In this document: positions 6,822-46,542 of the stretch, piece by piece
Position numbering within the stretch: the first letter of the stretch is position 1
Layout of the letters: the number at the start of each line of letters is the position of its first letter
Source: an uncultured Chthonomonas sp.
GTDB lineage: Bacteria > Armatimonadota > Chthonomonadetes > Chthonomonadales > Chthonomonadaceae
Assembly (NCBI GenBank): GCA_903859705.1
Contig: CAIONQ010000128.1
Location: forward strand, 1-49,054
Reading direction: 5' to 3'
Length of the DNA stretch: 49,054 bases
The notes under the pieces: model-generated
What the model was told of the DNA's origin: nothing
Database searches by the model: none
Seen by the model: only the letters and a program-made list of their open reading frames with translations
Made by a program: the position numbers and the translations under genes

Positions 6822-8929
6822 TTCGTATCTCCTGCTGCCGGATGGGAGTGCGTTCCGCTACTGTGGCCAGTATCCCCGTGGGATCCATGGTGACCGTGCC
6901 CATGGCCATCACTCTCCGAATCATCGGTAGGAATGTTCTTAAGGTCCTGCAAGTAGTAGCGCACATTGGCGAGCACAATATCCTTACGGCCCATCAGCGC
7001 TATCTTCAGGCGCAATCCAGACTGGCCGTGCAATAGATTATGCCACCGTTTGGAAGGCACAAACTCTGGCACTACTACGGTAACCAGATGGTTTCTGCGT
7101 TCTACCTGCACAGCATCAAGGTATCGCATGATCGGCCCGATCATTTCACGGTACGGGCTATTGAGAATAACAAGCGGAACATCTTGCCCCCATGTTTCCC
7201 ATCGCTCTTTAAGTGCAGGCGTTTTCTCTGGATCGGTTTGTATATGTACAGCCCGGCAATCTGGCGAAAGGGAGCGCGCATAATCCAGCGCAGGCATTAC
7301 GCCGCGATGCAGTGCGGGCACCATAACAAGCACCGTATGCTTAATGGGAGTGGTGTTTGGCGTGAAATCGCGCATGCCAAGCTGTTCACTTACTTCAAGA
7401 TAATGGCGGTGTACTTTCCTGAACATCCATACAGATATCGCCACCAGAACAATAACGTACCAGGCGCCTTCGCTAAATTTCTCAATTGTAATGTCAATTA
7501 AAACCAGAAAGGTAGCGATTGCACCAATTCCATTAATGGTGGCCTTAACGGCCCAACCTCTGGTTGTATCCTTAAGCTTATACCAGTGCACCACCATGCC
7601 CGATTGCGATAGAGTAAAGGCTGTGAATACACCAACGGCATAGAGCGGGATAAGGGCATCTACGCTGCCATTCTTAAGTATGATTAGCCCTGCAGCGAAG
7701 GCACCGAGGATGATAATACCGTTGCTGAAAACCAGCTTATCTCCCAGGTTAGAAAACTGCTTGGGAAGATACCGATCGTGGCCAAGGATGGAGGCAAGGC
7801 GAGGGAAATCTGCAAAGCTGGTATTGGCAGCGAGCACCAGAATAGCTGCCGTAAAGAACTGCGTAAGGTAGTAGCCAAGCATCAGCTTGCCGGTTTTACC
7901 AAACACTGCTCCAGAAATTTGATCGATAACTGCGTTCGCGGTTTGCCCGTTACTCTCCCAGTACACAACATGCAATCTCATTGCAAGCCAGGAGATACCA
8001 AGGAACACGGTTCCGAGAATAACACCCATTGTAACCAGAGTAACAGCAGCGTTCTTAGATTTTGGCTCCTTAAACGCCGGAATTCCGTTACTAACGGCCT
8101 CCGTACCCGTCATTGCGGAACAGCCCTGAGCAAACGCACGCATTAGCACAACAAGTCCAAACGTTTCAGCAGCCTTTTGTGGCCCCCAATTGTGGTTCAC
8201 CCATTCATCATGGAAGTGCCAGCCGAACATTGGCCCGAAAATGCCCACCGCAATCATAACGTAGCACATCACCACAAAGCCGTAGGTGAAGATTGCAAAC
8301 AGCGCGCCCGATTCTTTAAGGCCGCGCAGGTTGGCCATTGTTAGAAGCGCAATAAAGGCCAAACACCACGGCACCAGATGATAAAAGTGCAGAAACTTAA
8401 AAGAATCTGGCAGGCTACCCAGGTTCTGAACGCCGGAAGCTATAGATACTGAAACAGTAAGCACATAATCTATCAGCAATGCGGCGGCAGCGATGAGTGC
8501 GGGCAGGGTTCCGAACCGCTTAGTAGTGAGGTTATCCTTGGATACAATGTAGGAGCCACCACCGCCCGGGTAACCAAAAACGGTTTGCCAGTAGGATACA
8601 ACAACGATAACCAGCAGGGTTACAATTAGCCCCGTAACCAGCATGGTATAGTGCGTGTACTGCTGGCGGTTCTCTATTGCATATAAACCGGCTGCACCCA
8701 GCGCCAATATAATTTGCTGCGTTGCATAAGCAACCGATGAGATAGCATCGGAGGCGAACACCGGAAGCGCCAGGAACTTTGGAAGCAGCGTGTGCTCAGC
8801 ATGTTCGGTGGAAATTGGAGAACCAAGAAACAGCCGGCGCATCCGCTGCTGACCGGTAACCTTTGCAGGCGCAATGGGGGTGAGGGGTAGCGGCTCATCA
8901 TTCAAGCCCCCGGGAGAAACATCTGCCAT
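6818..8929 (-). CDS. KimA-like APC-superfamily potassium transporter
   Basis: 703 residues. The N-terminal ~500 residues carry about 12 hydrophobic helices and the APC-fold signature near the first helix (LPVFASDAISSVAYATQQI), as in Bacillus KimA (YdaO), a high-affinity K+/H+ symporter inhibited by c-di-AMP. YPGGGGSYIVSKDNL follows helix 2, a conserved site in this family. Residues ~520-650 form a cytosolic USP-like domain (HTVLVMVPALHRGVMPALDYA), typical of KimA. The last ~35 residues are a His/Gly/Asp-rich tail (HGHGHHGSHGD) that may bind metal; the tail is unusual. It is longer than KimA (about 607). It heads the run STAS-USP, nadC, birA. Potassium as substrate is inferred from family resemblance; an amino-acid permease role is the alternative. 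Confidence 0.78.
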   Translation of the reverse strand: MADVSPGGLNDEPLPLTPIAPAKVTGQQRMRRLFLGSPISTEHAEHTLLPKFLALPVFASDAISSVAYATQQIILALGAAGLYAIENRQQYTHYTMLVTGLIVTLLVIVVVSYWQTVFGYPGGGGSYIVSKDNLTTKRFGTLPALIAAAALLIDYVLTVSVSIASGVQNLGSLPDSFKFLHFYHLVPWCLAFIALLTMANLRGLKESGALFAIFTYGFVVMCYVMIAVGIFGPMFGWHFHDEWVNHNWGPQKAAETFGLVVLMRAFAQGCSAMTGTEAVSNGIPAFKEPKSKNAAVTLVTMGVILGTVFLGISWLAMRLHVVYWESNGQTANAVIDQISGAVFGKTGKLMLGYYLTQFFTAAILVLAANTSFADFPRLASILGHDRYLPKQFSNLGDKLVFSNGIIILGAFAAGLIILKNGSVDALIPLYAVGVFTAFTLSQSGMVVHWYKLKDTTRGWAVKATINGIGAIATFLVLIDITIEKFSEGAWYVIVLVAISVWMFRKVHRHYLEVSEQLGMRDFTPNTTPIKHTVLVMVPALHRGVMPALDYARSLSPDCRAVHIQTDPEKTPALKERWETWGQDVPLVILNSPYREMIGPIMRYLDAVQVERRNHLVTVVVPEFVPSKRWHNLLHGQSGLRLKIALMGRKDIVLANVRYYLQDLKNIPTDDSESDGHGHGHHGSHGDTGHSSGTHSHPAAGDTK

Positions 8930-21622: not shown

Positions 21623-21651
21623 TTGACCCCTTGGAAGCGATGGAGTATAAT
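21623..21651 (+). promoter_or_regulatory. Strong promoter for the glycosidase-like gene
   Basis: TTGACC at 21623-21628 and a perfect TATAAT at 21646-21651 with 17-base spacing. The 5' UTR is about 100 bases and ends in CAGGAG about 10 bases before ATG 21756. Confidence 0.85.
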
Positions 21652-21755
21652 GAGCCGTCAGCGCCTAAGGCACCATGTGCCGGTACGCTGCACAGCAAGT
21701 TGCTTTCCCTTCCATGTACTGTACGTTTGACAATTGAAACCAGGAGATCTATCCC

Positions 21756-24700
21756 ATGAGCTTCGACGAACTGCCGCCGGGCTCCGTGCCGCCTTCCCCC
21801 ACAGGGAACGAGCAGGCATCGAGCGCCGCGCAGGAGACGTCTGGCCTGGATGCGCCGCCTGCTGCGGGTACGCGACGACGTCGCACTCGAACCGCAGGGA
21901 CCGCCGCAGCACCGGCCGCAGCGCCCGCCGAACAGGATTCTGAAACTCCCGCACGGGCGGGCCGCAGACCTCGTAATGTTGCCGCAAGTCTGCCTGCCAC
22001 CGAGCCAGCTTCTGAACCCGCTGAACCAACGGCTGCCGAAACCCCACGCTCAGATTCTGCCCCCGTTGCACGCCCCAGGCGAGCAACGCGAAAACGTGAG
22101 CCTGTGGTTGCGCCTGAGGTAACCGCAAATACGGTGGAACCAGAGCCAGAAATTGCAGCCCCAGCGCCGGAACCTGCTGCTCCAACCCAATCCGCAGCCC
22201 CAGTAGTGCCTGTACTTCCGCCCTCACGGAGGAGGCGCCGCTCCCTGCGTGGTGCACCGGAAACGGATATGGATTCTTCTGTATCTGAAGAGATTATTGA
22301 GCCTACAGCAGTTGTTGAGCCCGTGGCAGAACTCCCGGCCCCGGTTGTGGCCACAGCACCGCTTTTGCCGCCTTCCAGGCGTAGAAGAAGCTCTGCTGCA
22401 CGCGCTTTGATAACACACCAACAGCCAGCTGTAGAAGACCCATTTGCCATAACTCCGGCATCTGCAGACGAAGAACCCGCACAATCAGAGCCTGCTCCCA
22501 CCACCGTTCAGGAGAGTGCAGCCTCTGCTTCCGCTATTGATAGGCAAGCGCGCAGGCGCCGCAGCTCCCGCGGTAAACGTGGCCAGTTGTTGCCAGAATC
22601 TCCTGTTGCCGAATCAACGCCCGCTGTAGATGCCGAGCCAGCTAAAGCAGCTGTTGAAGGCACTTCCGATGCTGAATCGGAAGCAGAGGCAGCCCGATCT
22701 CGCCGCAGGCGCAGCAAGCGCGCAGGCGGCATGCCGGTTGCAGTGGCGGCAGCGGCCCCAGAAATCATCGTTGCAGAACAGCCAGAAGTGGTAGTTCCAT
22801 TGCAGGATGTGTATACCGTGCCTGCAGGTATTGATGTTACCGTTGGTGCGCACCTTGTACCGCGCAATGGCATGCCCGAGATTCACATCAACGGCACTGT
22901 TTACCCGCCGGTTTTGTTCTTTGGTAATGTGGACGACCCTGCCAACCAGGAGCGCGTTACCTCAGAAGTTAAACATGCCGCGAGTGCCGGTGTTCACATT
23001 CACTCCACGCTGATTGAACTCCCCTGCCCACTGCTTCCTGAGAGCACGGCACTGGCTGAAGCTGCGGAAAAACTGGCGCTTGTTGCGGAAGCCGACCCGG
23101 AGGGCTATGTTATTCCGCGTGTGGTAATTATTCCCGCCCGTGGCTGGAAACGCCGCAACTCTGCTGAGGTATCACTGTATGCAGATGGCTCTAACGGAGA
23201 TCCATCTATAGGCAGCGACCTATTCTGGGCGGAAGCAGCAGAATCTCTCAAAAGCCTGGTAACGTTCCTCGGTGCTCAGGAATGGGGCGGGCGCGTGGTT
23301 GGATATCATCTGGAACGCGGAGAATGGTTCCAACCGGTATCTCAGGGCTACGACAGGTGTACCGCAAACCGCGATTGCTTCCGAGAATGGCTCAAGCAGA
23401 AGTACAGAAATAACCCCATTCTGCTGCGCGCAGCCTGGTACGATGGCGATATTCAGTTCAGTACTGCCGAAATTCCACAGCCTCAGGGCAAACCCGCTCC
23501 GCACCGTGCATTCTATGAATCCAGGCGGGAACGGGCCACAGTCGATTTCAATGAGTACACCTCTGAAATCACTGCAAAACGCCTGATAGCTCTGGCAACA
23601 GCAGTTAAGCGGGCCGCAGAACATCGTGCCCTGGTTTCGGTGTGCTATGGCTACACATTTGAGTTCGGCCACACGTTTAGTGGGCATCTTGCTTTGAGCT
23701 TGATTGAGCAATCGAAAGCTATCGATCTCATCTGTGGCCCACCTTCTTATCGAGATAGAACGCCAGGTGGCGCAGCTTCTATGCCGGCACCCATCGATTC
23801 GCCAGCGCTACATGGCAAAATCTGGATCTCAGAAGACGATACCAAAACCTTCCTTGCACCAGAGGCACAGGATCCAGAAGATTTTAATATTCGTCTGGAA
23901 TCACGCGAGGCAACGGAGTTTGCGCAGCAACGTGCTCTCGGCCGCGCAATCTCACACTCTTCTGGCATTGGCTTCATGGATTTGTGGGGCGAAGGCTGGC
24001 TTGATGATGAAAGCATCTGGAGCAAACTTGGTACGTTTGTAGACCGCTACGGCCGGCAATTGGCCCTGCGCCAACACCCACGTGTTCCAGACGTAATTGC
24101 GCTTATAGATGAGCGCAGCCTGGCACATGTTCAGCGTGGAGAAGCATTTGTTCGGAGAATTGCTTCCGAAGCACGGAACTCACTGCAGTCCGCAGGTGTC
24201 TCCTTTGGGGTCTATCTGCAGAACGATGTGCTTTCACCCACCTTTCCGGATACTGCTCGCCTTTACCTATTCCTCACACCCTACAGGCTAACTGTAGAAC
24301 AGCGTGCGGCAATTAAAGAGAAGCTCCAGGATAAGAATAAGACTCTTGCATGGTTCTATGCCCCGGGCTGCTGCGAAGAACGCTCTCAGATCGGTGGCGC
24401 GGTAGAAGAATCTGCTACCGGCGTAACGGGCATTGCATTGCGCCCGCAGGAGTGGAACTCTGAAGTAGGATCTCGCGTGGTAGATACACACCACCCGCTA
24501 ACAGAACGGCTGAATGGCCGGGAAGTTGGTGCAAAAGAGAGACTGAATCCTTCATTCTACGTGGATGATCCAGAGGCATCTGTGCTGGCAGAATACCAGG
24601 GCTCTGGCCTGCCATCCATTGCTGTGAAGAACATGGGAGATTGGAAGTCCGTATTTGTAGGCGATCCTGTTCTTCCCGTCGATTTGTTACGTGGAATCTG

Positions 24701-25448
24701 CCGCTATGCCTCAGTGCATGTGTGGGCACCTCAAGGCGACGACATAATTGATATTGGCTGCGGACATGTAACCATCCACGCCGTGCGTGATGGTAACAAG
24801 ACAATTCGCCTGCCAGAATCTACAGGCCTTTACTCGGTTACGGATAGCCGACATATCGCAGAAGAAACGCGCGAATATCGCTTCTTTATGAGGCGCGGAG
24901 AAACGCACACATTCTGTGTTGGCAATGCCGAAAGGTTTGATGCCTTTGGATTACCCAATGTGCAAAAACCGGCTGCAGGCACTCGCCCAGCCCCCGTTGT
25001 ACCGCCGCCACCGCCAGAGCGCGAAGTTAGGCGGGAAACACCCTCTCGTCCCAGGCCACAATCTTCAGATATCGAAACTCTGGAGGCGGTTCTCAACATG
25101 GATATCTCAGCTCTGGAAGATGTAGAGCTCGAAACCCTGCCAGATGAACCTATAGACTTTGTGTTCCTCGATCCCAATGCTGACCCTGCAGAGATATTTG
25201 CAGATGGCCCCGATGCTGCCGGTGAAGTGATGGCCGGCGGACGCCGCAGACGTAGACGTGGCGGACGTGGGAGAGGCCGAAGGCGCCAGGGCGATGGAAT
25301 TGGCCCGGATGGTACGGATGGTCCGGAAGGCTCCAATGGCGGCTCCGAACCTACCCAGAGCAGCGGATGGCGTTCTGGAAACACAACAAACCAGGAGTCT
25401 TCTAATGGCGGGGCCGATACCTTCCGCGAAGGAACTGAGGGCTTTTAA
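21756..25448 (+). CDS. Glycosidase-like protein with Arg-rich disordered tails
   Basis: 1230 residues. Residues ~1-348 are low-complexity (Ala/Pro/Glu/Ser), with Arg clusters spaced along them (near 40, 107, 158, 208, 268 and 318; for example PPSRRRRRS). Residues ~349-1075 look like a TIM-barrel glycoside hydrolase distantly similar to GH42/beta-galactosidase proteins. GYHLERGEWF (Glu near 522) and KIWISEDDTKTF (Glu near 692) are candidate acid/base and nucleophile sites, and a later part resembles the GH42 trimerisation domain. The C terminus has an acidic stretch and then an Arg/Gly segment (GGRRRRRRGGRGRGRRRQ, ~1160-1178) like RNA-binding RGG tails. No signal peptide is visible, so a cytoplasmic location is likely. 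The Arg-rich tails resemble those of RNase E or nucleic-acid-binding proteins. Substrate and role are unknown. Confidence 0.6.
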   Translation: MSFDELPPGSVPPSPTGNEQASSAAQETSGLDAPPAAGTRRRRTRTAGTAAAPAAAPAEQDSETPARAGRRPRNVAASLPATEPASEPAEPTAAETPRSDSAPVARPRRATRKREPVVAPEVTANTVEPEPEIAAPAPEPAAPTQSAAPVVPVLPPSRRRRRSLRGAPETDMDSSVSEEIIEPTAVVEPVAELPAPVVATAPLLPPSRRRRSSAARALITHQQPAVEDPFAITPASADEEPAQSEPAPTTVQESAASASAIDRQARRRRSSRGKRGQLLPESPVAESTPAVDAEPAKAAVEGTSDAESEAEAARSRRRRSKRAGGMPVAVAAAAPEIIVAEQPEVVVPLQDVYTVPAGIDVTVGAHLVPRNGMPEIHINGTVYPPVLFFGNVDDPANQERVTSEVKHAASAGVHIHSTLIELPCPLLPESTALAEAAEKLALVAEADPEGYVIPRVVIIPARGWKRRNSAEVSLYADGSNGDPSIGSDLFWAEAAESLKSLVTFLGAQEWGGRVVGYHLERGEWFQPVSQGYDRCTANRDCFREWLKQKYRNNPILLRAAWYDGDIQFSTAEIPQPQGKPAPHRAFYESRRERATVDFNEYTSEITAKRLIALATAVKRAAEHRALVSVCYGYTFEFGHTFSGHLALSLIEQSKAIDLICGPPSYRDRTPGGAASMPAPIDSPALHGKIWISEDDTKTFLAPEAQDPEDFNIRLESREATEFAQQRALGRAISHSSGIGFMDLWGEGWLDDESIWSKLGTFVDRYGRQLALRQHPRVPDVIALIDERSLAHVQRGEAFVRRIASEARNSLQSAGVSFGVYLQNDVLSPTFPDTARLYLFLTPYRLTVEQRAAIKEKLQDKNKTLAWFYAPGCCEERSQIGGAVEESATGVTGIALRPQEWNSEVGSRVVDTHHPLTERLNGREVGAKERLNPSFYVDDPEASVLAEYQGSGLPSIAVKNMGDWKSVFVGDPVLPVDLLRGICRYASVHVWAPQGDDIIDIGCGHVTIHAVRDGNKTIRLPESTGLYSVTDSRHIAEETREYRFFMRRGETHTFCVGNAERFDAFGLPNVQKPAAGTRPAPVVPPPPPEREVRRETPSRPRPQSSDIETLEAVLNMDISALEDVELETLPDEPIDFVFLDPNADPAEIFADGPDAAGEVMAGGRRRRRRGGRGRGRRRQGDGIGPDGTDGPEGSNGGSEPTQSSGWRSGNTTNQESSNGGADTFREGTEGF

Positions 25449-25620
25449 GATAGGTGCCAGAGCGCGTAAGTTCGCTACAGAAGAGTGCGTTATCGAAGGG
25501 TACGAATTGCTCTATACTGCGATTGCAGAAGCAAAATCGGCCGATCCGGCACTGCACACACTCTTGTTGCATGAGCTCGAACGCTATGAGCTGCACGTGA
25601 GCAAACTGGAAGAGGCGTAA
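25405..25620 (+). CDS. Small helical protein overlapping the preceding gene
   Basis: 71 residues from ATG 25405, which has CCAGGAG 7 bases upstream. It overlaps the end of the 1230-residue gene by 44 bases in another frame. The open frame begins earlier (25258), but that part translates the Arg/Gly tail out of frame and is not credible. The protein is charged and helical (AKELRAFKIGARARKFATEE, then LHTLLLHELERYELHVSKLEEA), without Cys or a membrane segment. Not recognised. The overlap suggests it is made together with the large protein. Confidence 0.65.
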   Translation: MAGPIPSAKELRAFKIGARARKFATEECVIEGYELLYTAIAEAKSADPALHTLLLHELERYELHVSKLEEA

Positions 25621-25781: not shown

Positions 25782-27284
25782 ATGGAGCGTGAGTTTCGCA
25801 CTATTCTGCTGGCGCTAACCGGCCTGTGCCTCTTATCGGTTGCTGCTTCAGCAGCGCCGCCTGCTGGCCCACCAGCTGCTTCGGCAGCTGGCCAGGCAGA
25901 AGTATCTGCCATCATAAAAAAATCCACAGAGTACTACCACAAGCTCAACTCCTACACTGCGGATATATCTATTAAAACCACGCGCACGGCTGCCGGTGAA
26001 ACAGAATCCAGCGAGGCACGCTTTATTCTTGCTCTGGATAGGCCCAACCGCTTTTGCTATCGAGATACATCCGCTAACAACGGTACAGCAGCGGTTTGTA
26101 ATGGCAAGCAGTTTACAAACTTCAAAGCAGATCGTAAACAGTACACACAATCCGTTGCTCCTGCAGACTTCCGCGGAATAAACATAGTCGACGACGTCTC
26201 TTTTGAGCCGCTTGGTGGCTATATAATTGCGTTGATGCTTCAGGGAAACGCATACTCAGATAAAGATGTGCGTGCCGCTCTCGGCAAAGCTACCATGCGT
26301 CCGGCAGTGGTAGAAAGCGGCAAGAAGTACCAGGTAATTCATCTGCCATTTGGCCCCCAGGAAGAGCCCTACAACCTCTATGTTGCAGAAGATGGGCAGA
26401 TATCCAAAACAACCCTCACCGCCTCAGCGAATCAAATTAAAGTAACACTAACAGAATCCATGCTGAACATTAAGCTGGATAAGCCTGTAGACCCTGCGGT
26501 GTTTCTATATAACCCGCCCGCAACCGCACATAAAGTAGAAAAGTTTACGGCCCCTCAACGGCTGTTTGATGCCTATCAGCCTGCACTGCCCCATTCCGGG
26601 CTGAGCCTGGCTTCCTATGCGCCGCCCATACCGGCAATGAACAAAGATGTTGCCGATATCATCGATGCTGCGCGTGGCGCGTACTCTAAAATGAAGTCCT
26701 ATCAGCACACGGCAACTTTCAGGGCATCAGGAACTTCGCAGGGCAAAAAGGTGGATCAAGCGGCAAAGTTTTCCATGGCTATGAGCCGCCCAAACAAGTT
26801 CGCCTTCAAAATGGTAAGCAACACGGCGGTTGCTGTGGTAAGTGATGGAAAACAGGTTACAGATTTTCGGGCGGGAGAGTACTCACAATCCGCAGCCCCT
26901 GCGCACCTAAAAGACCTGAAGCTGGATCAGGATGACTTTGATCCCGTTGCGGGTAGCTTTCTAATAGCCCATTTGTTGGAAGATACCGTGTATTCAGATA
27001 GGAGCCTGCTTGGTATTCTGATTAAGGCAAGTGGGCACAAAGGGCTTGTAGCGGGCACAAAAACCTACGATGTAATTGACTTTCCAATCGTAGGTATTAC
27101 CTTTATTCTCTATTTCGATCCTTCCACCCATCTTCTTGAGAGGGCAGCAGCAAAAGTGCCAGATCAGGATCTCACACTCACCGAAACATTTGATACTGTA
27201 GAGATAGACAAACCTGTTCCAGATAGCGCGTTTACATTTGCTGTGCCCAAAACCGCCCATAAGGTAGCAAAACCAACACGCTAG
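25782..27284 (+). CDS. Secreted protein with two DUF2092/LolA-like domains
   Basis: 500 residues. A signal peptide is clear (LLALTGLCLLSVAASAAP, cleavage near residue 25). Two copies of the same ~200-residue domain follow, at about 38-255 and about 290-495. Each begins with a helix and 'Y.K(L/M)(N/K)SY', then a strand ladder with 'RPN(R/K)F', 'AV(C/S)(N/D)GKQ(F/V)T(N/D)F', and ends in 'DKPV(D/P)..(V/A)F'. This is the half-barrel outline of DUF2092 and of LolA/LppX-type lipid carriers. An internal duplication is evident. CAGGAG lies before ATG 25782. It ends exactly where the convergent gene ends. Binding of a hydrophobic ligand is inferred only from fold resemblance. Confidence 0.7.
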   Translation: MEREFRTILLALTGLCLLSVAASAAPPAGPPAASAAGQAEVSAIIKKSTEYYHKLNSYTADISIKTTRTAAGETESSEARFILALDRPNRFCYRDTSANNGTAAVCNGKQFTNFKADRKQYTQSVAPADFRGINIVDDVSFEPLGGYIIALMLQGNAYSDKDVRAALGKATMRPAVVESGKKYQVIHLPFGPQEEPYNLYVAEDGQISKTTLTASANQIKVTLTESMLNIKLDKPVDPAVFLYNPPATAHKVEKFTAPQRLFDAYQPALPHSGLSLASYAPPIPAMNKDVADIIDAARGAYSKMKSYQHTATFRASGTSQGKKVDQAAKFSMAMSRPNKFAFKMVSNTAVAVVSDGKQVTDFRAGEYSQSAAPAHLKDLKLDQDDFDPVAGSFLIAHLLEDTVYSDRSLLGILIKASGHKGLVAGTKTYDVIDFPIVGITFILYFDPSTHLLERAAAKVPDQDLTLTETFDTVEIDKPVPDSAFTFAVPKTAHKVAKPTR

Positions 27285-41043: not shown

Positions 41044-41486
41044 AAGGAAAGCGCTTTACGGCCAGCGTTTGTGTGCTGAATCCCGGCCGCCCACGTTTGC
41101 CATAACTTCGGCAAACATGCACTATAGTTTACCTCAGGCCGAGTCCGTATCCTCCCACAAATGCTATACAGGGTAAAACTGCAGTTAATTCTGTTGTCGC
41201 CAGGCGTTCACTATCATAAATTCCACTCTCGTGCCCAACCCGGCCAACTGGCACACAAGCAGTACCAAATTTCACATTAACTGTTTTTAAGGTTCATTTA
41301 AGCGGTTTTTAAGCCCGGCGCAGTAAAGTACGCAAACCTGCTTGTACCATCCGCATTCCCGGCTGCCTGTTTCTTCTTTTGCAGCAATTGGCCGGTTCCC
41401 TGGTCTTCTCGCCGCCCGTGCGCATTCCAGCAAACGGGAGCTTCTCAATATGTGTGTTGCCACTGCTGGCAATGGAGTCGCTGTTC
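41044..41486. other. Divergent intergenic region
   Basis: The region separates the ABC exporter genes (minus) from the cytochrome gene (plus). Apart from the -10/dyad pair described at 41095-41126, no consensus promoter or terminator was seen. An open frame begins at TTG 41379, but its first 36 residues have no coding character. Confidence 0.4.
41095..41126 (-). promoter_or_regulatory. -10 element and operator-like dyad of the ABC exporter genes
   Basis: On the minus strand a TATAGT lies at 41126-41121, followed at 41116-41095 by the dyad GTTTGCC-N8-GGCAAAC (7-bp arms). The dyad would cover the transcription start, the position of a repressor site. No good -35 was found. Confidence 0.45.
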
Positions 41487-44400
41487 ATGATGGAAAGTGG
41501 TTCCCCTGTAACGGAAAGCCGCGCTCAGAAATCGTCCGTAATTGCGCGCCTTCTCCGCCTTCCCGTTCTTATCTGCCTTCTTCTTATAGATTCGGCCTAC
41601 CTTGCCATTGCAAACCGGGCATCTGGGCCGCCTCGCATTCCTATTTCGGCCATCCTGTATGAGGGTTGTTTGCTGCTGCACATTGGGCTTAGCTTTGTAG
41701 CAGCCCTTCAGTTGCTGCGCGCAACACGCGCTTTCACAGCCAAAATCCGTACCTTTGAGGGGCCGCTAAAGGCAGTTTCTGTTCTTACCCTGCTGGCGGC
41801 ACGCCTCTGTATTTTGAGCGGACTTGGTTTTCTTGGTATCGGCTTTCGATGGCTGCCCCTTGGCGTTCGGCCCGCTCTGCGTTTAACACATGATTACAGC
41901 ACGGTGGTGTTTCTGGCATGCGGCGTGCTGGTTTTAATATTGAGGGCGCGCTCTGCTCGAGATGCCGCCGCTCCGGAGCGCAAACAGGCACGCCTGGCGC
42001 TGCGGCTTGGCACGGCCTTTGCCATTCCGTTTGCGGCGCTCATTGCTTACACCATTTATGTGCCTAACACGGATAGAATTATCATTAACCCTGCCCTGCC
42101 GCCCATTACTGCGCTGGATGAGGGCGATGGAGGCAATGGCAAGTTCTTCCCGGCTTCTGTGCAATCGGTGGATCAGCAGTTCTTCCCATCCCAGTACTTT
42201 ATGGATTCCAAGTCTTGCGGTAAAGCGGGCTGTCACCCGGATATTTACAAACAGTGGAACTCCAGCGCACACCACCGTGCCAGCTTTAACAATCAGTGGT
42301 ATCGACGATCTATTGAGTATATGCAGGAGGTTGTGGGAACCAAGCCCAGCAAGTTCTGCGGCGGATGCCACGATATGGCAGTTCTGCTTACCGAAGATCC
42401 CAAGAACCCGGGCAAAAGCCGCTTTGATAGCCCGATACTGGCACACGAGTTCCCGGTAGATAAATTCCCAGAATCTCACAGTGGTATCGGCTGTTCTGCC
42501 TGCCACTCGGTAGTACATGTTAAGAGCACCATGGGCACAAACGATTACACATCGGATTACCCGCCCATGCACCGCTTTATTGAGGCAGAGAACCCTGTAA
42601 CCAAAACCATGCAGGAGTTCCTTACCCGCCTGGCACCGGAGCCGCATAAAAAGACCTTCTTGCGGCCCTTCCATCAGAATCAAACCGCAAAATTCTGCTC
42701 ATCCTGCCACAAGGTTCACCTGGATGTGCCCGTTAATGGCTACCGGTGGTTCCGCGGCTTTAACGATTATGATAGCTGGCAGCAGAGCGGTGTTTCTGGT
42801 TTTGGTGCCGCATCGTTCTACTACCCCGCAGATGATGGTGGCAAACCGGCCTTTAAGAAGTGTGCCGATTGCCACATGCCCAACACAAAGTCTACCGATG
42901 CCGGTGCTGTTAATGGCATTGTTCATAACCACCGCTTCCCTGCTGCAAACACCGCCCTGCCCACTGCTTACCACGATAAAGAGCAGATGGAGGCCACGGT
43001 TAAGTTCCTTCAGGATAAAGCCCTTTCGGTAGATATCTTTGCAATCCGCCGGCAAATTGGCGCCGAGAAGCCTGCCCAGCACGCGGGAACCCCCGCACCT
43101 GCTGCACAGGATACTCCTGTGGCGGCGAGCCTTAATGGCGATGACACGGGCACGCACATCACCGCTGCTAACGTCTCCAATCGGGCAGAAGTGATAACCG
43201 CCCCGATCAATCGTGGCGGGCCCGGTGCCGTTCTACATCGCGGAGAAACTCCCCTTGTGGATGTGGTGGTACGCACCCTTAAAGTTGGGCATTCCTTCCC
43301 GGCCGGCACGCTGGATTCTGCGGATGTGTGGCTGGAACTGGAAGTGCGCGACGATCATGGCCGAGAGATTTACCACAGCGGCAAGCTGCAGTGGGAAAAT
43401 GGACCGGCTGAAGAGGGAGCAGAGCGCTACCGTGCCGTGCAGATTGATGGCCACAGCAACCCCATTAACAAGCGCAACGCCTGGGCGGCACGTGCTGTGG
43501 TTTACGCCAAAGTTATTGGCCCTGGTTCTGCAGATACGGTGCACTTCCGACTTCCGGTTCCGAAAAACTGCGGCAACAACGTTACCCTAACGGCGCGCCT
43601 AAACTATCGCAAGTTCACCTGGTTCACCAACCAGTTTGCATACGCTGGCCGATACGATGATACGTCTCGCCCGGATGATGATCCCTCTAAGATCAAGGTG
43701 AAACTGGGATATGAGGCAGATGGCAAGCCCAAAACTACCGGCCCACTATCCCATGGTTGGGATGATCGTAAGCTGCGCTTTGATGCAGACCTCAGCATCG
43801 TATCTGGAGATCTGAAAGAGGTGCCGGTGCTTCCAATAACCGTGCTGGCGCAGGATACGGTTACACTGCCGGTTATTGATGGCGCGGCAACATCTCCGGG
43901 CCCAACCCCGATGGCTGCAGCCACTGAAGATACCGTTAAGAAGGACCGCCTTCGGTGGAACGATTACGGCATAGGACTGATGCAGCAAGGCGATTTCCGC
44001 CATGCCACCGCCGCCTTTGAGCGCGTTACCAAAGTCGCCCCGAAATGGGCCGAAGGTTACGTTAATATAGGGCGTGTGCGGCAGGCAGAGCGCGATACGC
44101 CTGCAGCCAAAGCGGCATTCGAGAAGGCCTTTGCCCTCTATGAAGCATCGCCCACTCCAATGACGAAGTTTCAGAAGGCACGCACGCAGAACTTCTATGC
44201 ACAAACCCTGTTTGATACGGGCCGGTTGGATGACGCTTTGAACACCTTCCGGCAGGCGATGGAGGTATTCCCGGAAGATAGAAACCTGCACAATGCGGCC
44301 GGCGTAATCCTGTTCCGCCTTGGCAGATACGACGATGCCACCAAGGAGCTGAAACTTACCCTCAGCATCGATCCGGAAGATATCACCGCGCACTACAACC

Positions 44401-44696
44401 TCATGAAGTGCTGCCGTGCAAAGGGCGACTTTGCAAATGCCGAGATTCATGCCAAACTCTACAAACGCTTTAAAGTAGACGAAACAACAACAAATCTCGT
44501 TGGCCCGTTTGTTCGTGCCCATCCGTACGATAACAACCTGGCCCAGCCCATTCACGAACATGCCGATGCGGTGTGCCTGCCCAAGCCAGCCTGGCTGGTA
44601 AAGCGGGAGGCAGAAATTGCGGCAAAGCAGCGCGCAGAAGCTGCGCGTAATACCCGCGTTCAGCCCGTATCCACCACCGTGAGCCTGAACAGATAA
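41487..44696 (+). CDS. Membrane multiheme cytochrome c with TPR domain
   Basis: 1069 residues from ATG 41487, preceded by GGAG 9 bases upstream. About four to five hydrophobic helices lie in the first ~190 residues. A probably periplasmic part follows with five heme-type motifs: CGKAGCH (CX4CH, about 244), CGGCH (291), CSACH (336), CSSCH (404) and CADCH (459), plus several isolated His as possible distal ligands. This resembles the cytochrome c554-like multiheme domain. A beta-rich region comes next, and about four TPR-like units occupy ~820-1000 (YGIGLMQQGDFRHATAAFERV, RQAERDTPAAKAAFEKAFAL). It is 31 bases upstream of an FG-GAP gene. Electron transfer is inferred; the redox partner is unknown. 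Confidence 0.8.
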   Translation: MMESGSPVTESRAQKSSVIARLLRLPVLICLLLIDSAYLAIANRASGPPRIPISAILYEGCLLLHIGLSFVAALQLLRATRAFTAKIRTFEGPLKAVSVLTLLAARLCILSGLGFLGIGFRWLPLGVRPALRLTHDYSTVVFLACGVLVLILRARSARDAAAPERKQARLALRLGTAFAIPFAALIAYTIYVPNTDRIIINPALPPITALDEGDGGNGKFFPASVQSVDQQFFPSQYFMDSKSCGKAGCHPDIYKQWNSSAHHRASFNNQWYRRSIEYMQEVVGTKPSKFCGGCHDMAVLLTEDPKNPGKSRFDSPILAHEFPVDKFPESHSGIGCSACHSVVHVKSTMGTNDYTSDYPPMHRFIEAENPVTKTMQEFLTRLAPEPHKKTFLRPFHQNQTAKFCSSCHKVHLDVPVNGYRWFRGFNDYDSWQQSGVSGFGAASFYYPADDGGKPAFKKCADCHMPNTKSTDAGAVNGIVHNHRFPAANTALPTAYHDKEQMEATVKFLQDKALSVDIFAIRRQIGAEKPAQHAGTPAPAAQDTPVAASLNGDDTGTHITAANVSNRAEVITAPINRGGPGAVLHRGETPLVDVVVRTLKVGHSFPAGTLDSADVWLELEVRDDHGREIYHSGKLQWENGPAEEGAERYRAVQIDGHSNPINKRNAWAARAVVYAKVIGPGSADTVHFRLPVPKNCGNNVTLTARLNYRKFTWFTNQFAYAGRYDDTSRPDDDPSKIKVKLGYEADGKPKTTGPLSHGWDDRKLRFDADLSIVSGDLKEVPVLPITVLAQDTVTLPVIDGAATSPGPTPMAAATEDTVKKDRLRWNDYGIGLMQQGDFRHATAAFERVTKVAPKWAEGYVNIGRVRQAERDTPAAKAAFEKAFALYEASPTPMTKFQKARTQNFYAQTLFDTGRLDDALNTFRQAMEVFPEDRNLHNAAGVILFRLGRYDDATKELKLTLSIDPEDITAHYNLMKCCRAKGDFANAEIHAKLYKRFKVDETTTNLVGPFVRAHPYDNNLAQPIHEHADAVCLPKPAWLVKREAEIAAKQRAEAARNTRVQPVSTTVSLNR

Positions 44697-44727
44697 CCCT
44701 GTGGTTTCAGGAGACTTTGATAAACTG

Positions 44728-46542
44728 ATGAACAGCAGATTCGAGAGAGCACGCATTACGGCCAGCATAGCCATTGCGCTGGGGGCCGCTGCTCTCATAC
44801 CCCTTAATGGCTGCAATGGCTGCGGCAAGCCACCGCCACCTACTGTTACCACCACGCCAACGGCTGCCTATGCTGGCATCACGTTTACGGATGCCACCGT
44901 GCCTTCTGGCGTTCAGTTTAAGCACGTAAACGGTGCTTTTGGCCAGAAGTGGCTGCCCGAAACCATGGGCAGCGGCCTGGCATGGGTGGATGCTGATGGT
45001 GATGGGTTTCAGGATCTGTTTATAGTTAATGGCAGAGAGTGGAGTGCCGAAGAGCGCAGCCTGGGCCATCAGCCGGGCGCACCGGCAGCCGGTGCGCCGG
45101 CAACCTGCCACCTGTACCACAACAACGGCAACGGTACGTTTACCGATATAACACATGCCGCCCATCTGGATATCCCGATGTATGGCATGGGGGTTGCTGT
45201 TGGCGATTTTGATAACGATGGCAAACCGGATATCTTTGTTACTAGCCTTACCCGCTGCTATCTGTTCCACAACAATGGCGATGGCACATTTACAGAGATT
45301 GCCGACAAGGCTGGCCTGAAGGATGCAGGCTGGAGTTCCAGCGCGGCATTTGTGGATTACGATCGGGATGGCAAGCTGGACCTGGTAGTGTGCCACTACG
45401 TTAAGTGGTCGCCAGATACCGATATCCCGTTTATGCAAAACGGCCATCGCTCTTACGGTACCCCTCAGAAGTATGTGGGCCTGCCGCCAACCCTTTACCA
45501 TAACAATGGCAACGGCACCTTTACCGATGTATCCGAAAAGGCTGGCTTCCGTACTTCTGGCACCCGTAAGCTGCAGGGCAAATCGCTGGGAGTAAGCATT
45601 TGCGATTATGATAACGATGGCTGGCCCGATATTGCCATAGCCAACGATACCGAGCCCAACTACCTGTTCCACAACAAAAAAGATGGCACATTCGAAGAGG
45701 TTGGTGTGGATCTTGGCATGGCCTACCCTGATAATGGCGCTGCACGCGGGGCCATGGGAATTGATGCCTGTGATTACGATCGCAAAGGCAGAGATAGCCT
45801 GATTATTGGCAACTTCTCCAACCAGCAGCTTGCCATGTACCACAACGAAAATGGCGCCACCTTCCGAGATGTTGCCTCGCAGAACGGCATTGGCCCGGCC
45901 AGCCTTCTGAGCCTGAGTTTCGGGCTTTTCTTCTTCGATTTTGATAACGATGGCTGGCAGGATCTGTTTATTGCCAACGGCCACGTAGACGATGATGTGG
46001 AAGAGGTGCAGAAGCAGGTTCTGTATGCAGAGCAGCCGCTCATCTTCCGTAACCTGGGCACAGGCAGTTTCCAGGATGTAAGCACAAGCATCGGCCCGGA
46101 TATTCAGAAGAAGGCTGTAGCACGCGGCGCGGCATTTGCAGATATCCGCCTGCGAGGCTGGCTGGATATTGCAACAAGCACCAGCAACGGCCCGGCCCAT
46201 ATCTTTGAAAACAGCGGTGGCAGCAGCCACTCGCTGCGCCTGGAGCTGGAAGGCACGAAAAGCAACCGAAGCGCCATTGGGGCCATAGTAACCGTGAAAG
46301 CTGGCGGCGCAACCCAAACCTACCGGGTGCATTCTGGTTCTTCGTATTGCTCTCAGAGTGAGCTGCCGATTACCGTGGGGCTGGGAAAAGCAACTGCAGC
46401 AGATTCCATAACCATCACATGGCCGGCAACTGCCTCCGCTCCAACGGTGCTGAATGCCGTGGCCGCTGGTTCCATTTACCGGGTAATTGAAGGCGAGGCC
46501 CAGCCACGCATTCGGGCATTTGGTGCGGCATACAAGAAATAG
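44728..46542 (+). CDS. FG-GAP/VCBS-repeat protein with UnbV-type C terminus
   Basis: 604 residues from ATG 44728; GTG 44701 is an alternative. The N terminus MNSRFERARITASIAIALG and the following LIPLNGC form a signal sequence with a possible, non-standard lipobox (N at -2), so it may be a lipoprotein. Many FG-GAP repeats carry Ca-binding 'D.D.DG..D' loops: VDADGDGFQDLF, GDFDNDGKPDIF, VDYDRDGKLDLV, CDYDNDGWPDIA, FDFDNDGWQDLF. The C-terminal ~110 residues fit the ASPIC/UnbV domain (SNRSAIGAIVTVKAGG, then ITWPATA). This is the CRTAC1-like architecture. Its pairing with the cytochrome/TPR gene suggests a joint periplasmic or surface role. Function unproven. Confidence 0.9.
   Translation: MNSRFERARITASIAIALGAAALIPLNGCNGCGKPPPPTVTTTPTAAYAGITFTDATVPSGVQFKHVNGAFGQKWLPETMGSGLAWVDADGDGFQDLFIVNGREWSAEERSLGHQPGAPAAGAPATCHLYHNNGNGTFTDITHAAHLDIPMYGMGVAVGDFDNDGKPDIFVTSLTRCYLFHNNGDGTFTEIADKAGLKDAGWSSSAAFVDYDRDGKLDLVVCHYVKWSPDTDIPFMQNGHRSYGTPQKYVGLPPTLYHNNGNGTFTDVSEKAGFRTSGTRKLQGKSLGVSICDYDNDGWPDIAIANDTEPNYLFHNKKDGTFEEVGVDLGMAYPDNGAARGAMGIDACDYDRKGRDSLIIGNFSNQQLAMYHNENGATFRDVASQNGIGPASLLSLSFGLFFFDFDNDGWQDLFIANGHVDDDVEEVQKQVLYAEQPLIFRNLGTGSFQDVSTSIGPDIQKKAVARGAAFADIRLRGWLDIATSTSNGPAHIFENSGGSSHSLRLELEGTKSNRSAIGAIVTVKAGGATQTYRVHSGSSYCSQSELPITVGLGKATAADSITITWPATASAPTVLNAVAAGSIYRVIEGEAQPRIRAFGAAYKK

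Follow-up and report, generated by a model that had tools for sequence, protein, structure and literature searches.

An Armatimonadota protein with a predicted GH42-like glycosidase fold carries conserved arginine-cluster tails that may bind RNA

The window, i.e., the whole stretch of 49,054 nucleotides analysed here, corresponds to contig C128 in the 6.24-Mb genome of a Chthonomonadaceae-like member of the Armatimonadota, a poorly known bacterial phylum. It encodes a large protein with a core resembling GH42 beta-galactosidases in predicted structure, flanked by two tails with arginine clusters (Table 1); such clusters are usually a feature of RNA-handling proteins. We lean, with slightly better than even confidence, towards a cytoplasmic assembly of a clan GH-A glycosidase fold that is catalytic in most lineages and whose tails bind polyanions, probably RNA, in a multivalent manner. 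The tails were retained in orthologues from seven Armatimonadota families, including one genus in which the predicted catalytic pair was lost.

Table 1 Features of the tailed gene and its surroundings in the window.
Feature	Position	Strand	Basis or remark
Sigma-70-like promoter TTGACC-17-TATAAT, 11/12	21623..21651	+	Consensus match only
AGGAG ribosome-binding site, 5' of the ATG at 21756	21742..21746	+	Sequence
Tailed GH42-fold protein, 1230 aa	21756..25448	+	ATG start; about 60 distinct orthologues
N-terminal disordered-like tail, residues 1-354, five R4-R5 clusters, A/P/E background	21756..22817	+	Composition; kind conserved, sequence not
Core, residues 355-1075: TIM barrel, second domain, beta-sandwich, GH42 type	22818..24980	+	AF2, Foldseek, VIA
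Glu523, predicted acid/base, just past barrel strand 4	23322..23324	+	56/57 tailed, 15/15 untailed homologues
Glu693, predicted nucleophile, end of barrel strand 7	23832..23834	+	56/57 tailed, 15/15 untailed homologues; Leu in genus g31
C-terminal disordered-like tail, residues 1076-1230	24981..25448	+	Composition, C-tail comparison
Conserved basic block RRRRRRGGRGRGRRR, residues 1163-1177	25242..25286	+	Sole conserved block of 46 C-tails
71-aa three-helix protein, 44-base overlap with the large gene	25405..25620	+	15 genomes; AF2 pLDDT 95.7

The arginine runs of the window protein (R4 to R6) lie at residues 40, 158, 208, 266, and 316 in the N-tail and at residues 1163 (an R6 block) and 1175 in the C-tail. 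The N-tail has five runs of three or more arginines (R3+) versus 0.40 expected from shuffling the same tail (0 of 5000 shuffles were as high), and the C-tail has two versus 0.22 expected by shuffling (p = 0.013). The runs are encoded by mixed codons (CGN and AGR) and are thus not a DNA repeat. The background is rich in alanine, proline, and glutamate and near charge-neutral (FCR 0.26, NCPR -0.01), and the disorder of the tails was read from composition. An earlier sequence-only reading had described a barrel bracketed by such tails, and this description holds for an N-tail of ~354 and a C-tail of ~155 residues with runs far above shuffles. Its regular spacing of RRRR is only approximate, as the gaps between the strict N-tail runs are uneven (118, 50, 58, and 50 residues).

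The N-terminus is of the cytoplasmic type. An in-frame stop just 5' of the ATG excludes a longer N-terminus, the maximum hydropathy over 15 residues is 0.28 compared with 1.3-2.9 for most untailed homologues, and no Tat motif with a hydrophobic stretch was found there. The proposed lack of a signal peptide is thereby confirmed, and a cytoplasmic protein is supported as far as the N-terminal sequence can indicate. Untailed homologues from the same genomes mostly have hydrophobic, signal-peptide-like N-termini and no arginine tails, so the tails appear to go with the cytoplasm; the N-terminal type of two of them (L086 and L092) was left unassigned due to an uncertain start codon.

Orthologues were collected from 101 Armatimonadota genomes and public contigs, yielding ~60 distinct full or partial sequences from seven families, with the tails kept. 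The protein was detected in ~48 of the 101 sampled genomes (a hand count of matches above about 400 bits), with one copy each and confined to the seven families, the boundaries of which are those seen in the sampled genomes. All 54 orthologues with complete termini are tailed; the N-tails span 172-451 aa (median 304), and the C-tails span 34-337 aa. The N-tails contain on average 2.94 R3+ runs versus 0.32 in shuffles, with p < 0.05 for 41 of the 54 when each is taken by itself, and 48 of the 54 C-tails have an R3+ run. Strict R3 runs are weak or absent in the N-tails of some f3 (L069-L071) and f14 members, where the arginine/lysine clusters are looser. In general, the kind of tail is conserved and its sequence is not, as the mean column identity is 15% for the N-tails and 12% for 46 aligned C-tails.

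In a tree of 80 cores, whose root position is not fixed, all 63 tailed rows fell on one side of a branch with an SH-aLRT of 100, and the families were monophyletic. The tail state changed once on this tree, compared with 15.7 times in shuffles. Judged by copy number and phylogeny, the tailed protein is single-copy and vertically inherited in one branch of Armatimonadota. We also scanned 1616 genes of G003, a close relative with a complete genome (2.0 Mb or 58% covered, naive gene calling). The tailed gene had seven basic clusters in a low-hydrophobicity context, 23 others had one, and the rest had none, so no other gene in the set exceeded a single cluster. Together, these comparisons support that the tails are under selection. 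Close relatives without the clusters had been named in advance as grounds for rejecting the proposal, and the close relatives keep them.

The alignment of the 46 C-tails revealed a single conserved block, RRRRRRGGRGRGRR, in surroundings that drift, and the DNA pattern of the block in the window protein has one occurrence in the genome of the window. In a scan with 18,950 NCBIfam models, mycobacterial RNase E was matched by 18 of the 46 C-tails (best E 1.5e-5) and ribosomal L32 by one, and the N-tails had no match to any of these models. A tail peptide alone retrieved nothing from the PDB sequences. None of five fully shuffled C-tails matched NCBIfam, whereas two of five matched if shuffling spared only the basic block, indicating that the RNase E likeness resides in the block. 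An RNase E-like look of the tails had been noted in the earlier reading and is supported. The likeness argues for a similar function and not for common descent. The RNase E tails of Caulobacter, mycobacteria, and cyanobacteria likewise have arginine-rich blocks, set in a disordered background that is acidic and Ala/Pro-rich, and in Caulobacter such charge blocks together with RNA drive condensation (PMC10412687). Unlike RNase E, the tailed protein has no RNase E/G domain in Pfam and NCBIfam searches, and the RNase E of the same organism is a separate, tailless gene product of 714 aa.

The AF2 model of the core, built from a 51-orthologue alignment, had a pLDDT of 90.7 and a pTM of 0.91. The top Foldseek matches were GH42 beta-galactosidases (4oif, E 8e-25, TM 0.65/0.69, 13% identity), and VIA-align gave Z scores of ~21-22 over ~600 residues for GH42 (3tts, Z 22.3, 607 aligned) and GH164. 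GH35 reached a higher Z (24), yet with only 340-400 residues aligned. The GH42-type barrel suspected from the letters is thus predicted as a full three-domain fold, in which the second domain is trimerisation-like, with a Foldseek E to GH42 of about 1e-24. At the sequence level, the window protein had no match in Pfam or NCBIfam (PF02449 was absent even at E 1) and only weak GH42 matches in the PDB; 23 of the 51 orthologues matched PF02449 at E < 0.01 (best 7.5e-11).

With the eight barrel strands assigned by eye from the model, the predicted position of Glu523 after strand 4 and of Glu693 at the end of strand 7 is the arrangement of clan GH-A. Most GH-A enzymes have an asparagine directly before the acid/base glutamate. 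The window protein has Gly522 at this position, and G, R, H, N, D, or A is found among orthologues; we therefore filed the protein as GH42-like and not as a GH42 member. The known GH42 beta-galactosidases (Gan42B, 4oif/5dfa; Bca, 3tts; A4, 1kwg) share the whole fold (TM 0.60-0.71) and both glutamate positions, but differ in overall sequence (12-13% identity), in the Gly for Asn, and in the long arginine-cluster tails of the window protein. The GH164 beta-mannosidase Bs164 (6t5o) has the same overall architecture (Z about 21) at 10-11% identity, and nothing in the aligned chains corresponds to the arginine-cluster tails. The untailed homologues (e.g., G000:C144 and L080) have cores alignable at 28-34% identity and both catalytic glutamates, but are often present in many copies per genome and lie on the opposite side of the fully supported branch.

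Since nearly every lineage retains the catalytic pair, most of them probably still have an enzymatically active barrel. The exception among tailed proteins, and a further difference from GH42 beta-galactosidases, is genus g31, represented by single sequences from two draft genomes. Glu693 is replaced by Leu in G077, and Glu523 by Asn and Glu693 by Leu in G041; long tails are retained in both. The suggestion of a repurposed barrel is thus supported only in part, catalytic loss having been found in this one genus.

The 71-aa gene downstream has its own AGGAG ribosome site before the ATG, and the overlap with the large gene is as first reported. It was found as a single copy in 15 of the 101 genomes (families f1 and f3), and was thus not the isolated small reading frame that would have weakened the original interpretation. 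In all 14 genomes with both genes it adjoins the tailed gene on the 3' side (-44 to +101 bases); in the remaining genome, G016, the assembly is 64% complete and lacks a tailed gene. Twelve residues are invariant among 14 protein sequences, and the predicted structure is a three-helix bundle. Searches of Pfam and NCBIfam gave nothing useful, and the fold search, in which an MIT/TPR-like helical adaptor was considered, gave a best Foldseek E of 0.59 with no confident PDB match. The gene is missing from several tailed genomes, suggesting it is accessory. A helix motif of the C-tail, ETLxAVL, does not track the 71-aa protein, because in family f1 it occurs both in the presence and in the absence of the small gene.

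Upstream of the tailed gene lies a fatty-acid operon (plsX-fabH-fabD-fabG-acp-fabF), and downstream of the 71-aa gene a DUF2092/LolA-like gene. The operon is common to f1 members only and therefore carries little functional signal for the tailed gene. At ~18 loci in other families, a HAD-family phosphatase gene is directly upstream on the same strand; its nearest NCBIfam model is PpaX, with a match below the cut-off. The promoter from which high expression had been proposed is present as a promoter-like consensus match.

In the reading we favour, the core would oligomerise like GH42 trimers, and such an oligomer would present ~20 arginine clusters per particle for multivalent polyanion binding. 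The polyanion would most likely be RNA, either mRNA or ribosomes, and by analogy with the arginine-rich charge blocks of RNase E the assembly would probably gather into RNA-dependent clusters. The barrel site would probably still cut or bind a glycoside or a glycosylated ligand in most lineages, while in g31 catalysis would be lost and the binding function would stay. In Chthonomonadales, the small helical protein of 71 aa, whose gene is translationally coupled to the tailed gene in the window, would be a probable accessory partner. Most likely the protein has both an enzymatic and a binding function, and g31 suggests that binding is the more lasting of the two. Several observations speak against this reading: the tails are near charge-neutral overall, so RNA affinity is not guaranteed, the RNase E likeness is of low complexity and tied to the basic block, the strict N-tail runs are weak or absent in some f3 and f14 members, and Gly522 stands in place of the usual Asn.

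Arginine clusters are generic polyanion binders, and the protein could instead be a glycosidase active in the cytoplasm, with tails that attach to nucleoid DNA, polyphosphate, anionic lipid, or a glycan and serve only for its location or solubility. The conserved catalytic pair fits this alternative, and the upstream HAD phosphatase gene hints at metabolism. We nevertheless regard it as unlikely, though worth keeping in mind, as the tailed gene is single-copy, clade-wide, and vertically inherited, unlike the patchy, multi-copy catabolic glycoside hydrolases, the tails outlast catalysis in g31, and the conserved block is of the RG/RGG type. Somewhat more doubtful is a role as the main arginine-rich scaffold of an RNP body or RNA degradosome, in which the barrel would have taken over from the disordered RNase E tail of other bacteria, would bind PNPase or RNase E via its arginine clusters, and would use the 71-aa protein as an adaptor. 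RNase E is indeed short in genomes with the tailed gene (41 full-length cases, longest frame 775 aa), and those read lack an arginine tail. By hand count, 7 of the 42 genomes that lack the tailed protein (seven families) have a frame of >780 aa, versus 0 of 41 with it. G035 encodes an RNase E whose tail is Arg/Gly-rich, and in G092 an R4GGRGR DNA pattern (C131:6322-6347) shares its reading frame with the RNase E domain (7212-8024), 559 codons after the domain start ((8024-6347)/3 = 559). Cyanobacterial RNase E binds PNPase via RRRRRRSSA, as cited in PMC12489471, and the window protein contains the similar SRRRRSSA. However, RNase E is also short in the majority of genomes that lack the tailed protein, and in low-complexity tails short arginine motifs arise by chance. 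Counted by family, long RNase E is found in 7 of 26 versus 0 of 7 (p about 0.15 by hand calculation, not significant), so the complementarity is a lead only.

That the tails are functionless, the result of neutral GC- or repeat-driven low-complexity drift, is very improbable. Their poor alignability (12-15% mean column identity) would suit such drift, but the clusters are far above shuffles, use mixed codons, are unique in the sampled proteome (2.0 Mb of G003), and are kept through seven families, and the C-tail block persists amid the drift. There is similarly little chance that the protein is a glycosidase that leaves the cell, or reaches its surface, by a route needing no classical signal. 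Secreted-type glycoside hydrolases are its close homologues, but the window protein lacks any hydrophobic N-terminal segment or Tat-like start, its start codon is fixed by the upstream stop, and the orthologues open straight with low-complexity arginine-cluster sequence.

A search of one literature library, including GH42 together with RNA binding, returned no relevant paper and none describing the tailed protein. The combination of a carbohydrate-active-enzyme fold with nucleic-acid-type disordered tails, kept as a single-copy gene across a clade, is a clear case, and suggests that the protein has a housekeeping task involving RNA or some other negatively charged polymer and does not serve sugar consumption. 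It would show either a glycosidase whose ligand is associated with RNA or otherwise cytoplasmic, or a glycoside hydrolase barrel recruited as an RNP scaffold. Genus g31, with the catalytic pair lost and the tails kept, is a natural experiment separating the two functions, and the protein is a testable candidate for organising RNA turnover in bacteria whose RNase E has no scaffold tail.

At about 18 loci outside family f1, the family in which the fatty-acid operon upstream of the tailed gene is shared, the tailed gene was directly preceded on the same strand by a gene for a HAD-family hydrolase. On the other side, the small gene adjoins a DUF2092/LolA-like gene in the window, and the same adjacency was detected in several relatives.

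Features of the window and loci of the upstream gene
Feature	Position or loci	Strand
DUF2092/LolA-like protein, two repeats	window 25782-27284	
Multihaem cytochrome-like protein with TPR repeats, then VCBS/UnbV-like repeat protein	window 41379-46542	
HAD-family hydrolase gene upstream of tailed gene	L016-L043, L100, L105	same as tailed gene

In two Armatimonadota genomes without the tailed glycosidase-fold protein, G035 and G092, RNase E (L227, 792 aa, and G092:C131:6322-6347, respectively) carries a C-terminal tail rich in Arg and Gly. In the window's own genome, the PNPase (L233, G000:C130) has a long C-terminal tail rich in RGG/RGD, with an acidic stretch after it.

Untailed, secreted-type GH42-like homologues reach up to 10-15 copies in several related families, and the window's genome also encodes one (L080, G000:C144). 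Among the tailed orthologues, those of G041 (L099) and G077 (L100), from the same genus, have lost the predicted nucleophile, and L099 also lacks the predicted acid/base, yet both proteins retain both tails. L099 and L100 are candidate pseudoenzymes.
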